Part shown: in pieces, positions 15,775 through 31,555 of the stretch
Position numbering within the stretch: the stretch's first letter is position 1
Layout of the letters: every line of letters begins with the position of its first letter
Assembly (NCBI RefSeq): GCF_913046405.1
Contig: NZ_CAJWRQ010000019.1
Location: forward strand, 1 to 33,935
DNA from: an uncultured Christiangramia sp.
GTDB taxonomy: Bacteria; Bacteroidota; Bacteroidia; Flavobacteriales; Flavobacteriaceae
DNA length: 33,935 bases
Direction: 5' to 3'
The notes under the pieces: model-generated
Databases searched by the model: none
What the model was told of the DNA's origin: nothing
Seen by the model: only the letters and a program-made list of their open reading frames with translations
Translations under genes and position numbers: made by a program

Positions 15775-16929
15775 TTAGAACCTGAATAGTGCATTCATTT
15801 TAGATTCTTTTTCAGGCATTAAATAATCCTGAATTAAATAAACGTTTCCGCCCATTTCGATAGTTTTCTTCGCCGCCAGATTCATAAGAGAGCTGTTTTC
15901 ACTGGTTTGCTCATCGTCGATCTCAGTTTTCATTTGATCTTCGTCGTAAGTTCCCCATATCTCGGCTCTATTTTCGACAAATAATGTATCGATTCTTCCA
16001 TGATGGATTGCCGCCATAATATCACTTGGTGCAGAAGAGGTATTCTCTGTTTGACTTTGCTCTTTATATTTCTCAAGCTTGCTGTCGCGATCCTTATCCA
16101 GAAATTTTTCCGCGATCTTCAGAGACTTTTCATGCACTCCCAGTAGATCTGAGTCATTTGGATTACCGTCCACAACTTCATCTACAAGGTGATTGTAAGT
16201 ATTAGCCTCTTTGTAAATTGGAAATAGATAATCCTGACAGTAAACGATCAATGGTAACTTTTCTTTGTTTAAATAATTTTGAAGTCCTTGATCTACCGCG
16301 CGAAAGAATTGTTTGATCTCATCTTTTTCATCTCTTTCACTACCACCGTGACCGTGAAACTGAGTTTTTTCTCCTCCAGCTCCCTGCGTTCTAAATTGCA
16401 GTGCTTTTTCTTTATAATCGTACCCTACACGTTCTTCAAGTTCTGAAGGTGTAAGATCATCGATATCGATTGGAGTTATAGAATATTTACTGGCCTCATA
16501 TAACTGCACATCACTTATCTGTAATGATAATACATGAAATTTGCCATCACCATTCATTGCTGGTATTAATGGCTTCACATAAAATTCTTCGGAAATATAA
16601 GTGTAAGCTTCAAAATTTACGGGAAGACTGAAAGTTTTGAAATAATCTGGAGCAGCGAAAACTGCCAGTCCATCTGACTGGTGTCTCCAGAAATCTTTAT
16701 CATCCAGAAGTTCTTCAAACTTCTTAGACATCGTATCTAACGTACTTTTCTCAATTCCCTTGGTTGAAAGTTTTTTACTTGCCTCAGTCCAAAATGAATG
16801 TAAGTGCTTAAGGTTTTTCTGTTCTAAAACTTCTTTTCCACCACGTTGTGTTGGAATAAAAATAGACACACAAGTGTCATTTTTATAGCTAGCTAGTTCT
16901 TTAAATTCCTTTTCATTTATCATAGACAT
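15775..16929 (-). CDS. baeRF-family (bacterial eRF1-like) protein
   Basis: About 384 residues from the ATG at 16929. Other possible starts are 16923 and 16980; the upstream extension has poor composition. The N-terminal part (NDTCVSIFIPTQRGGKE), the central core (FHVLSLQISDVQLYEAS) and the C-terminal part (SDIMAAIHHGRIDTLFVENRAEIWGTYD, KKTIEMGGNVYLI) match the bacterial archaeo-eukaryotic release-factor (baeRF) superfamily, related to eRF1 and Pelota. In the position of the eRF1 GGQ loop is a Gly/His-rich segment, GAGGEKTQFHGHGG (183-196). A role in ribosome rescue or peptidyl-tRNA handling is inferred from homology only. It is flanked by a strong terminator and by a NYN-LOTUS RNA-metabolism gene. 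Confidence 0.75.
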   Translation of the reverse strand: MSMINEKEFKELASYKNDTCVSIFIPTQRGGKEVLEQKNLKHLHSFWTEASKKLSTKGIEKSTLDTMSKKFEELLDDKDFWRHQSDGLAVFAAPDYFKTFSLPVNFEAYTYISEEFYVKPLIPAMNGDGKFHVLSLQISDVQLYEASKYSITPIDIDDLTPSELEERVGYDYKEKALQFRTQGAGGEKTQFHGHGGSERDEKDEIKQFFRAVDQGLQNYLNKEKLPLIVYCQDYLFPIYKEANTYNHLVDEVVDGNPNDSDLLGVHEKSLKIAEKFLDKDRDSKLEKYKEQSQTENTSSAPSDIMAAIHHGRIDTLFVENRAEIWGTYDEDQMKTEIDDEQTSENSSLMNLAAKKTIEMGGNVYLIQDYLMPEKESKMNALFRF

Positions 16930-17043
16930 ATCTTTAATTTTTTGGTAGTTAAAAGGTAAGTCTATTATGAAACACTTCAAAGCGAAAGCCCCGTGCTTAC
17001 TACTAAATCTTTCTTAATAAGTCTCAAAATATTGTGAACTGGC

Positions 17044-27716: not shown

Positions 27717-27745
27717 AAAAAAGCAGCCATTTGGCTGCTTTTTTT
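27717..27745. terminator. Bidirectional rho-independent terminator between convergent genes
   Basis: The stem AAGCAGCC / GGCTGCTT with loop ATTT (27721-27740) is flanked by an A run on the left and a T run on the right. It therefore works for the plus-strand corA-lactonase transcript and for the minus-strand DUF1704/ATP-grasp/M14 operon, whose stops lie directly on either side. Confidence 0.9.
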
Positions 27746-28657
27746 CTATACGTCCTGCACGACAAAGAAACCATCGTTTCCCTGTGACTGGTATAGCGGC
27801 ATGAAAATATAAGCATCCCATTCGCTATAAACTTTCTCGCCGTTCTGTTCGGCTAAAAGTTCGCCTTTTTCAATTTTCTGAAAATTCTCATATCCTTCCT
27901 TCATTTTGAAAGTATCTCCATCCTCCAGGCCATGGCGATGAATTATTTCGAAAGTCTTTTGATCTGGAGCATTTTTTTTACTGAACCTTTCCACACATTC
28001 CGGATAGGTAGAGATTTCAGAAAGATCTAATTTATTTGCTTCCCTCAGAGCTAACCAGATCACCCCTTCGTGATTTTCTTCAGAAGTATCATCTGTATGT
28101 TGACCAGCTTCGAATACAAACCCAGTCATTCCAGTTCGGCTTAAATAATGGTCGATGTCTCCCGTAATGATATCACTGAAACCTCTAATGATATAAGTCG
28201 GGAAATTATGCGCCCATTCATCATTGTCGTTCACTTCCTGTACCGAGACATAAGGCAAACTTGCCGATGAGGTGGTATGGCAATCTAGAAAATACCTTTT
28301 CGTATGGTCCTTTTCAGAATAATTGTTTAGTACCTTAATGATCTCGAGCATTTCTTTTTGCTCATGTGTTTGAGGATCATTTTTCTGAATATTTTTTTTT
28401 GTCCAGGTTCTGTTGAGGTCCTCGTCTATATAACGTTTGTTCTCATTAAGTGCTTTCTGGTTCCCGGAAACTCCAACAATTTTACCCTCAATCTCAGGTT
28501 TGGTTTTATCCAGTTGTTTAAAAACTTCCTTCAGGGCGAACACACCACTTGGTTCGTTTCCATGAATTCCAGCTGTCACGAATAATAACGGGCCGGGTTT
28601 TCCTGAAGAATATTCTCCTATGATCCTGTCTACGTTCTCTTCTAGCTTCTCTTTCAT
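27746..28657 (-). CDS. Succinylglutamate desuccinylase/aspartoacylase (M14-like) family zinc hydrolase
   Basis: 303 residues of the AstE/ASPA branch of the M14 carboxypeptidase fold. The zinc ligands are His32 and Glu35 in TAGIHGNEPSG and His127 in FLDCHTT. DLNR (80-83) is the substrate-binding arginine, and FEAGQH holds the catalytic Glu183. The C-terminal part (about 215-303) contains a small beta-barrel-like extension (HGLEDGDTFKMKEGYENFQKIEKGE). The fold hydrolyses amide bonds at the carboxylate end of N-acylated amino acids or peptides. It is the last gene of a three-gene operon, four bases after the ATP-grasp ligase gene. The operon context suggests it trims a product of that ligase. 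No arginine-succinyltransferase genes are present, so AstE itself is unlikely. Confidence 0.86.
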   Translation of the reverse strand: MKEKLEENVDRIIGEYSSGKPGPLLFVTAGIHGNEPSGVFALKEVFKQLDKTKPEIEGKIVGVSGNQKALNENKRYIDEDLNRTWTKKNIQKNDPQTHEQKEMLEIIKVLNNYSEKDHTKRYFLDCHTTSSASLPYVSVQEVNDNDEWAHNFPTYIIRGFSDIITGDIDHYLSRTGMTGFVFEAGQHTDDTSEENHEGVIWLALREANKLDLSEISTYPECVERFSKKNAPDQKTFEIIHRHGLEDGDTFKMKEGYENFQKIEKGELLAEQNGEKVYSEWDAYIFMPLYQSQGNDGFFVVQDV

Positions 28658-28661
28658 AAAA

Positions 28662-29708
28662 TTAATCCATTGTGGCCAGAGTCCTGTTGCTTAACTGACC
28701 TTTATACATATTCTTATACTCAACTTTTCTTTCGATCGCCTCGATAATATAATCTGTAAAAGGCGAAAGTCCGATATCCTTAAAATGTTCCATTCCACCC
28801 GGGCTTAGTACATTGATCTCGATCAATTTATCCTTGACGATATCAAGTCCCACGAAAAATAATCCGTCACGAATTAATTTAGGTGCTGTAAGATCAACGA
28901 TACGTTGCATTTCCGGAGTTAGCTCACTACTATCTGCAGTAGCTCCTAGGCTGAAATTACTACGGAATTCTCCATCACCGGCAACACGTCGTATAATCGC
29001 TTTTTCACCGTCTCTTTCCATTACTTTCCCATTTAGCAATAGTACCCGAACATCACCATCTTTGACGGCAGGTAGAAATTCCTGTGCGATCACGTATCCC
29101 TGAGAGCTTAAATGATCGATGATCTGGTTTACATTCTTCTCGTGTTCATCTATAAGATATACATCCTGTCCTCCTGAACCTTCCAGAGGTTTCAAAACCA
29201 TTTTTTTATTCTGTTTCTCCCAGAAATCTAAAAGTTGGTCTTTGTCTCTGGTAATGATAGATGCTGGTTTGATTTCCTGAGGTAACTCTTCGAAATATAA
29301 TTTATCAATAAAGGCATGGGATAGGGCATAGGCATCGTTTAGAACCAGAACATCCAGTTGCTGGATCATTCTTCCAAATGCGACACCAGCCTGCTCGGCC
29401 CATTGTCTTCCTTCTTCTTCGGTAGGATTGTTTCTAATAAAAAGAACATCCAGTATCGTACAGTCAATTTGCTTTTTTATAGCCTTTGGACCCTGCAAAG
29501 CTTCCAGAAACTTCTTAGTAGACTTGGTTTTAGTATCCTTTGGTAATTGAGTAGAATTTATAGTGATAGGTTTATCATGGTGGAAGTTAAAATCTCCAAC
29601 ACCCATTGCATAAACTTCATGACCTCTTTGATGAGCCATCTGCATTAGCGCGTTCGATGTACCATCTTTCTCTGTTGCGACATCATTTAATACAAAACAT
29701 ATTTTCAT
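28662..29708 (-). CDS. GshB-like ATP-grasp amide ligase
   Basis: A 348-residue ATP-grasp enzyme most like glutathione synthetase (GshB). The N-terminal domain has VLFIRNNPTEEEG. The ATP-binding part has VLKPLEGSGGQDVYLI (Lys173, glycine loop 177-180), DGDVRVLLLNGKVM, RRVAGDGEFRSNFSLGA, and the metal-binding GLDIVKDKLIEINVLSPGG (Asp289, Glu297, Asn299). Such enzymes join a carboxylate, via acyl phosphate, to an amine of an amino acid. No gamma-glutamylcysteine synthetase gene is nearby. Its tight operon with two zinc hydrolases (ATGA overlap with DUF1704, four-base gap to the M14 gene) suggests a peptide-tagging or small-peptide role rather than classical glutathione synthesis. It may still be annotated as glutathione synthase. 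Confidence 0.85.
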   Translation of the reverse strand: MKICFVLNDVATEKDGTSNALMQMAHQRGHEVYAMGVGDFNFHHDKPITINSTQLPKDTKTKSTKKFLEALQGPKAIKKQIDCTILDVLFIRNNPTEEEGRQWAEQAGVAFGRMIQQLDVLVLNDAYALSHAFIDKLYFEELPQEIKPASIITRDKDQLLDFWEKQNKKMVLKPLEGSGGQDVYLIDEHEKNVNQIIDHLSSQGYVIAQEFLPAVKDGDVRVLLLNGKVMERDGEKAIIRRVAGDGEFRSNFSLGATADSSELTPEMQRIVDLTAPKLIRDGLFFVGLDIVKDKLIEINVLSPGGMEHFKDIGLSPFTDYIIEAIERKVEYKNMYKGQLSNRTLATMD

Positions 29709-31555
29709 TTACATACCATTTGTGGAAGGCTTAAACCATTCCTGATTAATTTCAATTTTTCGAACATTTGTTCACTATGTAGAAACCGGGGTTTTATCCT
29801 AAGCGGTTCCAAAACTTTTCTGTCTGTTAATTCCCGGATTATATTTGTGTGCTTAATTCCGTATTTACCGGCTAGCAGAATCTCATAATCATCATTATTC
29901 TTAAGGTGCTCTTTAAGTAGAACAAGTCCCTTTAAATAAATAATGTCTTTAATAAATCCACCGCCCTGCATAATTCGGGAAGTGATATTAAAGGCTCTTT
30001 CCGCAGAAAAACCATAATCTATTTTTAATAATCTGAATATTTCCTGGAAATTCGCACCTTCTAAAACTGCCTGTCCTGCCAGTACTCTTCCGGCTAGGAT
30101 TCTAAGTCTGTTTGCTGTAAGGCCATCAACCATAAATTCAGACATTACAGCCAGACCTTCCTGTAGGGGATCATAATCTGCCAGGCCAATGCTTAATTGT
30201 TTTAAAGGTTGCCTGCTTCCATTGTAATAAGTGAGAACATGCGTTCCAACTTCGTGCTGAATAAGTGCTTCTGCCTCGATACGACTCATTTCATAATCTG
30301 CAGGAATGTATAATTCTCCATGAGAAACCATCATTACGTTCACATCTTTTCGAATATGGACTTTGCAATTAAAGTTTGCATCCTGTTGCTTGAAATAATC
30401 AAATTCTTTTCGTGCAAGGCTGCTAAATTCTTTCGCATCAATAATATCATTCGACTCGTTATAGGTTTCTTCCGGTACTTCGTTGAGAATATTCTGAGCC
30501 TCTTCGCATAATTGTCGATCCACGCCCTTGTAAAGCCGAATGCTATCGTACATAAAGTTGCTGGACCCACGTTCGCCCAGCATGGTGATTTGCATATCAA
30601 GTTCTTCACGCTTTTCGCGGAATAAATAGGACATCGCAGGATCGTCAATATCTTCGATCTTTAAATTATACAGTCTGCGCTTTAAAATATCAGGATCAAC
30701 CGGCAGTAGGCGATAATGATAGTCCAGAACATTTTGATATTTACTTTTAAAGAATTCTTCCTTGATTTCATGAATATTGGCAGGGGAAACCAGCCAGAGG
30801 AATTGATATGATTTTTCAATATCTGCAAGCTGCTTATCAATATCAAATACGACTTGCTTTAAATATTTTCGTCCCAATGCATTGAAGCTGGCGACGCCGC
30901 CTGTGGTTTGTACCCTGATAAAGTCAAAGAACGACCTATGCATGGCCTTGATCAGGAAGTCTTTAAAATTTCTGAAAAAGACTGGGTATAACTTATTATT
31001 CTCATTCCTGTAAACTGGAGGAATTTCTAGGCTTACCAGAACAGCACCGCAATTCTTAGCCTCCTCAATACTCATAAGATCTTCGGAATCTTCCGCACGC
31101 CTATGTATCGTATCTACAATTTCTGTATCCAGATACAGGCCGGTAAAAACTTCATTTATGGTTAATAGATCCTTCTGAAGGGTTTCCAGACTGGTAGGAA
31201 GTTTTTCAGCAGGACCTTTAATACGCAATTTTTGAGATTCCTCATTTCCTGCATAAATTTCGAACAGTAAATATGATTTCATTTCTACTGATAGCAAATT
31301 AGAAATAGCGATCAGTAATTTTTGATAACCGGCAAAATCGCGATTTCCGATAATCATATAAGAAGATTCACTGGTAATAAACCTTTTGGTGCCTTTATCA
31401 TTTGACTTTTTACGGTAGATGACCAGATATGGTAATTCTTTTTCAATATGCAAAATCCCCATGCCGGGAAGCATACAGCTTATCTCCTTATTTTCTTTAA
31501 GAATTGTTAAGATTTGTTGAATGGAATTTTCAGATAGATCAGGTATTTCCTGCAT
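29705..31555 (-). CDS. DUF1704 / flavohemoglobin expression-modulating QEGLA motif metallopeptidase
   Basis: 616 residues. The zinc site HEVGTH (434-439, HExxxH) and the signature QEGLA (465-469) are both intact, placing it in DUF1704. This family includes the vertebrate tubulin tyrosine carboxypeptidases MATCAP/TMCP, and in bacteria it is named after an effect on flavohemoglobin expression. The N-terminal half (about 1-270) is an extra domain that I do not recognise. The C-terminal half includes the catalytic core and a helical end with GGGFIKDIIYLKG. There is no signal peptide, so it is cytoplasmic. It is first in an operon; its stop overlaps the ATP-grasp start (ATGA). Peptidase activity in bacteria is inferred from the intact motif. 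Confidence 0.87.
   Translation of the reverse strand: MQEIPDLSENSIQQILTILKENKEISCMLPGMGILHIEKELPYLVIYRKKSNDKGTKRFITSESSYMIIGNRDFAGYQKLLIAISNLLSVEMKSYLLFEIYAGNEESQKLRIKGPAEKLPTSLETLQKDLLTINEVFTGLYLDTEIVDTIHRRAEDSEDLMSIEEAKNCGAVLVSLEIPPVYRNENNKLYPVFFRNFKDFLIKAMHRSFFDFIRVQTTGGVASFNALGRKYLKQVVFDIDKQLADIEKSYQFLWLVSPANIHEIKEEFFKSKYQNVLDYHYRLLPVDPDILKRRLYNLKIEDIDDPAMSYLFREKREELDMQITMLGERGSSNFMYDSIRLYKGVDRQLCEEAQNILNEVPEETYNESNDIIDAKEFSSLARKEFDYFKQQDANFNCKVHIRKDVNVMMVSHGELYIPADYEMSRIEAEALIQHEVGTHVLTYYNGSRQPLKQLSIGLADYDPLQEGLAVMSEFMVDGLTANRLRILAGRVLAGQAVLEGANFQEIFRLLKIDYGFSAERAFNITSRIMQGGGFIKDIIYLKGLVLLKEHLKNNDDYEILLAGKYGIKHTNIIRELTDRKVLEPLRIKPRFLHSEQMFEKLKLIRNGLSLPQMVCK

Follow-up and report, generated by a model that had tools for sequence, protein, structure and literature searches.

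We analyzed a 33,935-nucleotide stretch of DNA from an uncultured Christiangramia sp. (Flavobacteriaceae; accession no. NZ_CAJWRQ010000019.1, positions 1 to 33,935; hereafter the window), in which three minus-strand genes form a confirmed operon. In the order of transcription, they encode a MATCAP/QEGLA (DUF1704) metallopeptidase (616 amino acids [aa]; positions 29705 to 31555), a GshB-like ATP-grasp ligase of the PRK12458 subfamily (348 aa; 28662 to 29708), and an AstE/AspA-type (M14-like) zinc amidohydrolase (303 aa; 27746 to 28657). The tight packing described in the first-pass annotation of this DNA was verified in the sequence: the peptidase and ligase genes overlap by 4 bases (ATGA), and a 4-base gap (28658 to 28661) separates the ligase and amidohydrolase genes. 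The same annotation gave the three genes a shared terminator. A GCAGCC/GGCTGC hairpin with A and T runs on its flanks (27723 to 27738, assigned to no strand) is readable by eye but is absent from the list returned by a scan for consensus terminators; it could possibly act in both directions, ending both the operon and a facing lactonase gene. In related flavobacteria, presumed CorA and lactonase genes (18 loci each) adjoin the operon on the other strand; they were identified from position and length and were not counted as operon members.

The peptidase passes the Pfam cutoff for MATCAP (PF08014; 266 bits against 27) and scores 303.1 bits with the NCBIfam QEGLA equivalog (TIGR02421), below the cutoff of 338.65. 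Its best named match, the peptidase of C. portivictoriae, is 93% identical. Human MATCAP is its top match both by sequence and in a Foldseek search with the predicted model (predicted local distance difference test [pLDDT], 90.7), where the structural match has 20% identity and is followed by YndL, a poly-gamma-glutamate hydrolase (E = 1.1e-3). In all 35 aligned sequences, H434, E435, and H439 of the metal-binding and catalytic motif HEVGTH (HExxxH; residues 434 to 439, positions 30239 to 30256) are invariant, as are Q465, E466, and G467 of the QEGLA motif (residues 465 to 469, positions 30149 to 30163), in which Glu466 is the presumed third metal ligand. Thus, the initial identification of a DUF1704 protein with both motifs, related to MATCAP/TMCP, is borne out by the profile score and the invariant residues. 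The tubulin carboxypeptidases MATCAP/TMCP (KIAA0895L and KIAA0895) have the PF08014 catalytic domain with HExxxH in common with the window enzyme; the latter differs in being bacterial and operonic, in having an extra N-terminal part (see below), and in having no tubulin to act on. TMCPs are reported to trim tubulin tails and to shorten glutamate chains, and the E281A mutant is inactive (PMC10499314). For the window protein, metallocarboxypeptidase activity is the predicted function.

The N-terminal part of the peptidase (residues 1 to 240, positions 30836 to 31555) matched no Pfam family. However, a profile of 96 such N termini, compared with a profile of N-formylglutamate amidohydrolases (FGases) from which fusion proteins had been left out, scored 93.5% in hhalign (E = 2.4e-7), against 0.4% for a reversed control and at most 0.7% for 20 permuted controls. 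A smaller pair of profiles, run first, gave only 56.6%, and larger ones gave 96.1% with the fusions included and 97.7% with the fusions alone. In the alignment obtained with the fusions included, the window protein reads Glu-Ile-Tyr where FGases have an invariant Asp-x-His, so the histidine at that position has been lost; the amino-terminal FGase motif falls outside the aligned region. On these profile comparisons, the N-terminal part is probably a decayed FGase domain. The YndL match is assigned to this part by inference, because the Foldseek output gives no aligned range. An FGase domain is followed by a MATCAP domain within one polypeptide in six proteins from the 138 loci collected (L118, L119, L209, L227, L230, and L231), and Pfam confirmed both of the fusions tested.

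The ligase exceeds the cutoff of its subfamily model (NF009110; 436.4 bits against 408) and falls short of the GshB equivalogs (TIGR01380, 178.1 of 299.05 bits; NF003573, 192.3 of 272 bits) and of the RimK family (TIGR00768, 72.8 bits; cutoff, 143.4). Its Pfam scores are 163 bits for PF02955 versus 66 bits for PF08443. The best Protein Data Bank match of its model (pLDDT, 89.9) is GshB (1gsa; template modeling scores, 0.79/0.87; 27% identity), followed by RimK; thus, the closest solved structure is that of glutathione synthetase, from which the ligase is set apart by belonging to the well-separated subfamily NF009110. At the nucleotide site, it carries EFRSN (positions 28956 to 28970), which is the version found in RimK, versus ETRGN in E. 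coli GshB, and R249, S250, and N251 are invariant in 35 of 35 aligned sequences. The likeness to tubulin tyrosine ligase (TTL) proposed earlier holds at the level of the fold only: TTL is not among the 50 structure matches listed, and a TTL-like tyrosine ligation was rejected.

The third protein passes the cutoff of PF24827 (AstE_AspA_cat; 74 bits against 25), and its H32, E35, H127, and E183 (the HxxE, H, E pattern) are invariant in 17 of 17 aligned sequences; with AstE proper (TIGR03242), it scores 61.8 bits, the cutoff being 305.65. It had been likened, through its M14 fold, to the cytosolic carboxypeptidases; it is nearer to AstE and aspartoacylase, whose relatives deacylate amino acids, and its closest solved relatives act, by their names, on N-succinyl-glutamate and N-acetyl-aspartate. 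This position in the operon is exchanged between two families. Among 78 peptidase-plus-ligase loci whose flanks were examined, AstE was present in 52, FGase in 20, both in none, and neither in 6 (L095, L096, L100, L101, L108, and L109). The AstE genes of L084 and L092 are on the opposite strand only, and in L121, L122, L123, L222, L223, and L098, a protein of about 275 aa and/or one of about 110 aa is encoded between ligase and FGase, the larger being a rhodanese in L121 (the single one tested). The equivalence of AstE and FGase here is one of position only, because homology between them was not detectable by profile comparison with the alignments used (0.8% and 3.1%). A further variant, at L210 (5058 to 8010), has MATCAP overlapping an AstE of the RimK operon type, with no ligase detected at the locus.

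The gene order is found well beyond this genome. A scan of named genomes kept the best 80 of 574 relatives, and is therefore biased towards close relatives; peptidase and ligase occur together in 78 of the 80 loci, and the remaining two (L080 and L104) are cut off by the end of the contig, within the peptidase or shortly past it. In 71 of the 77 same-strand pairs within 400 bases of each other, the peptidase and ligase genes overlap or are at most 50 bases apart. The record titles of these loci cover Bacteroidota, Balneolaceae, Gemmatimonadetes, Planctomycetota, Poribacteria, Calditrichaeota, and Proteobacteria, those outside Bacteroidota being metagenome bins. Plasmid records from S. meliloti 2011 (pSymB), Aminobacter, and Shinella have the order FGase-MATCAP-ligase; on one Ensifer plasmid, the ligase is present but no MATCAP was seen within the 11 kilobases examined. 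Closer to the window, MATCAP was found in 28 of 59 relatives' genomes, from which 30 loci (L003 to L032) were drawn; the row of peptidase, ligase, and AstE recurs unchanged in 22 of these (the window counted among them), 5 others have peptidase and ligase, and in 3, the short flanks examined contain nothing of the module but the peptidase. These counts, like those of the named loci, go beyond chance.

Co-occurrence of ligase and MATCAP was also counted across genomes. Among 395 Bacteroidota genomes (that of the window included), 19 have MATCAP and 18 have a strong ligase, where "strong" denotes the 17 scores over 408 bits plus that of G060 (396.5 bits), which was admitted by a threshold chosen after the gap in scores had been seen (the score that follows is 214.8). 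Every one of the 18 ligase genomes also has MATCAP, the two genes lying within 2,160 base pairs of each other (hypergeometric P = 3e-30, uncorrected for relatedness); the 19th genome, G241, has a short, solitary MATCAP. Of 299 proteobacterial genomes, 29 have MATCAP, 8 have a strong ligase, and 7 have both, the ligase of the eighth starting at base 48 of its contig. From 27 of the 29 proteobacterial MATCAP genomes, 30 loci were examined; the 21 genomes free of the ligase had MATCAP proteins mostly of 425 to 484 aa, with no strong ligase nearby. At another locus (L117, 5668 to 8855), MATCAP adjoins a DUF2652/polyketide-cyclase-like protein, and no ligase is present. Therefore, the ligase is nearly always accompanied by MATCAP, and not vice versa.

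These distributions also bear on whether the ligase is an ordinary GshB that makes glutathione, its neighbors being incidental. The NCBI name of the subfamily is glutathione synthetase, a published screen counts PRK12458 as GshB, GshB is the best structural match, and the window genome does have one GCS2 homologue. That homologue sits in another operon, with an RLAN-type ATP-grasp protein and an FGase, PF04262 is absent from the genome, and, as was first read from the window, the operon itself contains no gshA. GCS2 was detected in 6 of the 18 Bacteroidota ligase genomes, versus 214 of the other 377, and PF04262 in none of the 18; therefore, 12 of the 18 have neither gamma-glutamylcysteine ligase (a search with PF08886 was uninformative, its controls giving no response). 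Among the matches listed, G450 and G696 each have a strong ligase (433 and 476 bits, respectively) and, in addition, another protein that scores within the ordinary GshB range (194 and 237 bits). Ordinary glutathione synthesis would, moreover, leave the pairing with MATCAP unexplained. On these results, we rejected glutathione synthesis as the principal explanation: it is unlikely for the subfamily, and the account in which the neighbors are incidental is very improbable.

Several functional leads come from published data. In Photobacterium damselae, A0J47_RS17020 (GshB) and A0J47_RS17025 (QEGLA) are up 38.4-fold and 27.5-fold, respectively, in 1% versus 3% NaCl; their tags are consecutive, on chromosome II, and the authors take RS17020 as a glutathione synthetase (PMC10308900). 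In Photobacterium sp. DA100, the ligase gene is followed by an overlapping gene for an FGase-MATCAP fusion, and the P. damselae pair would therefore be a ligase and such a fusion. At low salt, A0J47_RS00405, annotated as the ATP-grasp ligase RimK, is up 52-fold in the same organism (PMC10308900). RimK ligates glutamate, RimB takes glutamates off RpsF, and the synthesis of polyglutamate has been discussed as a drain on the glutamate pool (PMC11957791). For V. vulnificus, a table of genotype-specific genes (PMC3091676) shows VV2_1203 (COG3930) and VV2_1204 (glutathione synthetase) side by side, which fits joint gain or loss of the pair. Gene neighborhoods add an SDF-family (Na:dicarboxylate) symporter gene in 13 of the 138 loci (108 of which hold the ligase), which in 11 of its 13 loci lies 14 to 458 bases before a same-strand ligase gene. 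Together with the rlo genes described below, these leads suggest a role for acidic amino acids and for osmotic control, without proving either. As side observations, an MgtE-type magnesium transporter (L211) or a protein with an MgtE_N domain (L110) is encoded shortly after the ligase, and a DUF413 (MaoP-like) gene adjoins the ligase or the FGase-MATCAP fusion in L209, L230, and L231.

A further lead is provided by genes resembling rloA, rloB, and rloC, which come next on the ligase strand after the ligase in L212 (by Pfam) and L215 (by similarity). In P. aeruginosa, growth at low osmolarity requires the three RloA proteases, whose loss is rescued by deletion of rloB or rloC; RloA cleaves polyglutamate (PMC12239564). 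The rlo operon (RloA retropepsin, RloB inactive transglutaminase-7TM protein, and RloC ATP-grasp protein) thus likewise ties ligase and peptidase genes to low osmolarity, but it has no MATCAP, AstE, or FGase and does have a secreted peptidase and a membrane protein. As rlo mutants are defective in biofilm formation, antibiotic tolerance, and morphology (PMC12239564), the module of the window might, as may hold for the rlo genes, feed or edit a peptide of the cell envelope. We consider this improbable: rlo-like neighbors occur in only 2 of the 138 loci, and no signal peptide or membrane segment was seen by eye in the three window proteins.

The interpretation that we prefer, tentatively and at somewhat less than an even chance, is a cytosolic ligation-and-trimming module of the RimK/RimB kind, which most likely joins glutamate or another acidic residue and which, in at least one lineage, is upregulated at low salinity. 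The ATP-grasp enzyme would activate a carboxylate of a peptide or protein, either terminal or in a side chain, and join to it an amino acid, of which glutamate would be the likeliest by family resemblance and neighbors only. The MATCAP-type metallocarboxypeptidase would trim residues off the C-terminal end, after which the zinc hydrolase, of either AstE or FGase type, would open the remaining amide, e.g., that of an N-acyl- or branch-linked acidic residue. The three enzymes would jointly control how much of a glutamate-rich modification or oligopeptide is present, in the way of RimK and RimB. We infer that the ligase and the hydrolases have a product in common, that it contains glutamate, and that the module has an osmotic role. 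In the RimK-RimB (RimABK) system of S6 glutamylation, an ATP-grasp ligase is likewise combined with a peptidase that trims its product, and EFRSN is common to both ligases; here, in contrast, the ligase is nearer to GshB and the peptidase is a MATCAP rather than a retropepsin. The reversible tagging cycle originally proposed is therefore supported in part, in that a ligase and two zinc hydrolase families are retained together across phyla, with fusions in six proteins and with their catalytic residues kept.

Several observations weigh against this interpretation. The ligase's greater nearness to GshB than to RimK is one, and the N-terminal glutamate contacts of RimK are, by eye, missing from it. 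The relatives of AstE and FGase are deacylases, not known removers of tags. MATCAP occurs without a strong ligase in 22 of the 29 proteobacterial and 1 of the 19 Bacteroidota MATCAP genomes, and the fusion of Vibrio sp. HDW18 has no ligase in the stretch examined. The P. damselae pair was matched through annotation, tag order, and a relative, not through its own sequence. The rlo-like neighbors are confined to 2 of the 138 loci and MscS-like genes to 3, only one of the latter adjoining the ligase, numbers for which there is no background rate; the SDF genes are restricted to flavobacterial loci, 10 of the 13 being of the short-MATCAP type, with none seen beside the window operon.

Some of the same facts would suit a pathway to a small peptide metabolite, in which the ligase joins amino acids or peptides and the hydrolases deacylate or trim precursors, with neither a protein target nor a reversal. 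This is the main rival to ligation and trimming, although we judge it rather unlikely. In its favor, small peptides are what GshB-type enzymes produce, N-acyl amino acids are the substrates of relatives of AstE and FGase, and ligases stand in tandem at some loci: two in L052, L054, L056, L078, and L096 and three in L107 (7893 to 13446), where a mechanosensitive-channel gene overlaps the end of the row. Conversely, induction at low rather than high salt, as reported for P. damselae (PMC10308900), ill suits a compatible solute, no recurrent export or acyltransferase gene was found among the larger neighbor clusters identified, and those members of the MATCAP family that have been assayed act on protein tails (PMC10499314).

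Beyond the triad, the window genome (G000) has two other rows of this type which, from their predicted domains, are second and third ligase/hydrolase modules. On contig C28 (L114, 5326 to 8686), an RLAN-RimK-type ATP-grasp protein, GCS2, and FGase are encoded in a tight row, which likewise combines an ATP-grasp protein with an FGase but differs in containing GCS2 and in being without MATCAP. On contig C7 (L115, 6008 to 8300), a RimB-type retropepsin, RimK, and an AstE-type hydrolase follow one another. As a separate observation, a bacterial archaeo-eukaryotic release factor (baeRF) family protein is encoded in the window at positions 15775 to 16980 of the minus strand. Anti-phage defense was considered for the operon and rejected, none of its three proteins having a PADLOC match.

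ATP-grasp ligases accompanied by peptidases are already known as a kind of system, and the amidoligase survey of Iyer et al. 2009 (Mol Biosyst) reportedly predicts ATP-grasp/peptidase systems. What look new are the triad combination, the way in which AstE and FGase replace each other, the fused proteins, and the decayed domain, a novelty that is provisional because that survey may have listed the neighborhood. No discussion of the triad was found among the papers listed from the open-licence literature searched, subscription papers being outside its coverage. The peptidase/ligase pair itself has already been in print, unremarked in the available parts of the source, as V. vulnificus VV2_1203/VV2_1204 (PMC3091676).

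These results give regular partners to the bacterial relatives of MATCAP, now named for "flavohemoglobin expression" alone, and mark low salt as a condition in which their function may be sought. They also suggest that proteins of the PRK12458 type are often misannotated as "glutathione synthetase," and perhaps so is the product of the gene called GshB in the low-salt transcriptome. A far bolder view, which we think quite unlikely, would place the bacterial MATCAP enzymes in an old reversible cycle of glutamylation, or of acidic-residue addition, that adjusts cells to low salinity through an ATP-grasp writer and two zinc erasers, with the eukaryotic tubulin detyrosinase/deglutamylase as an offshoot of the erasing half. 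At any rate, a possible bacterial counterpart of tubulin-tail editing becomes testable in laboratory strains.

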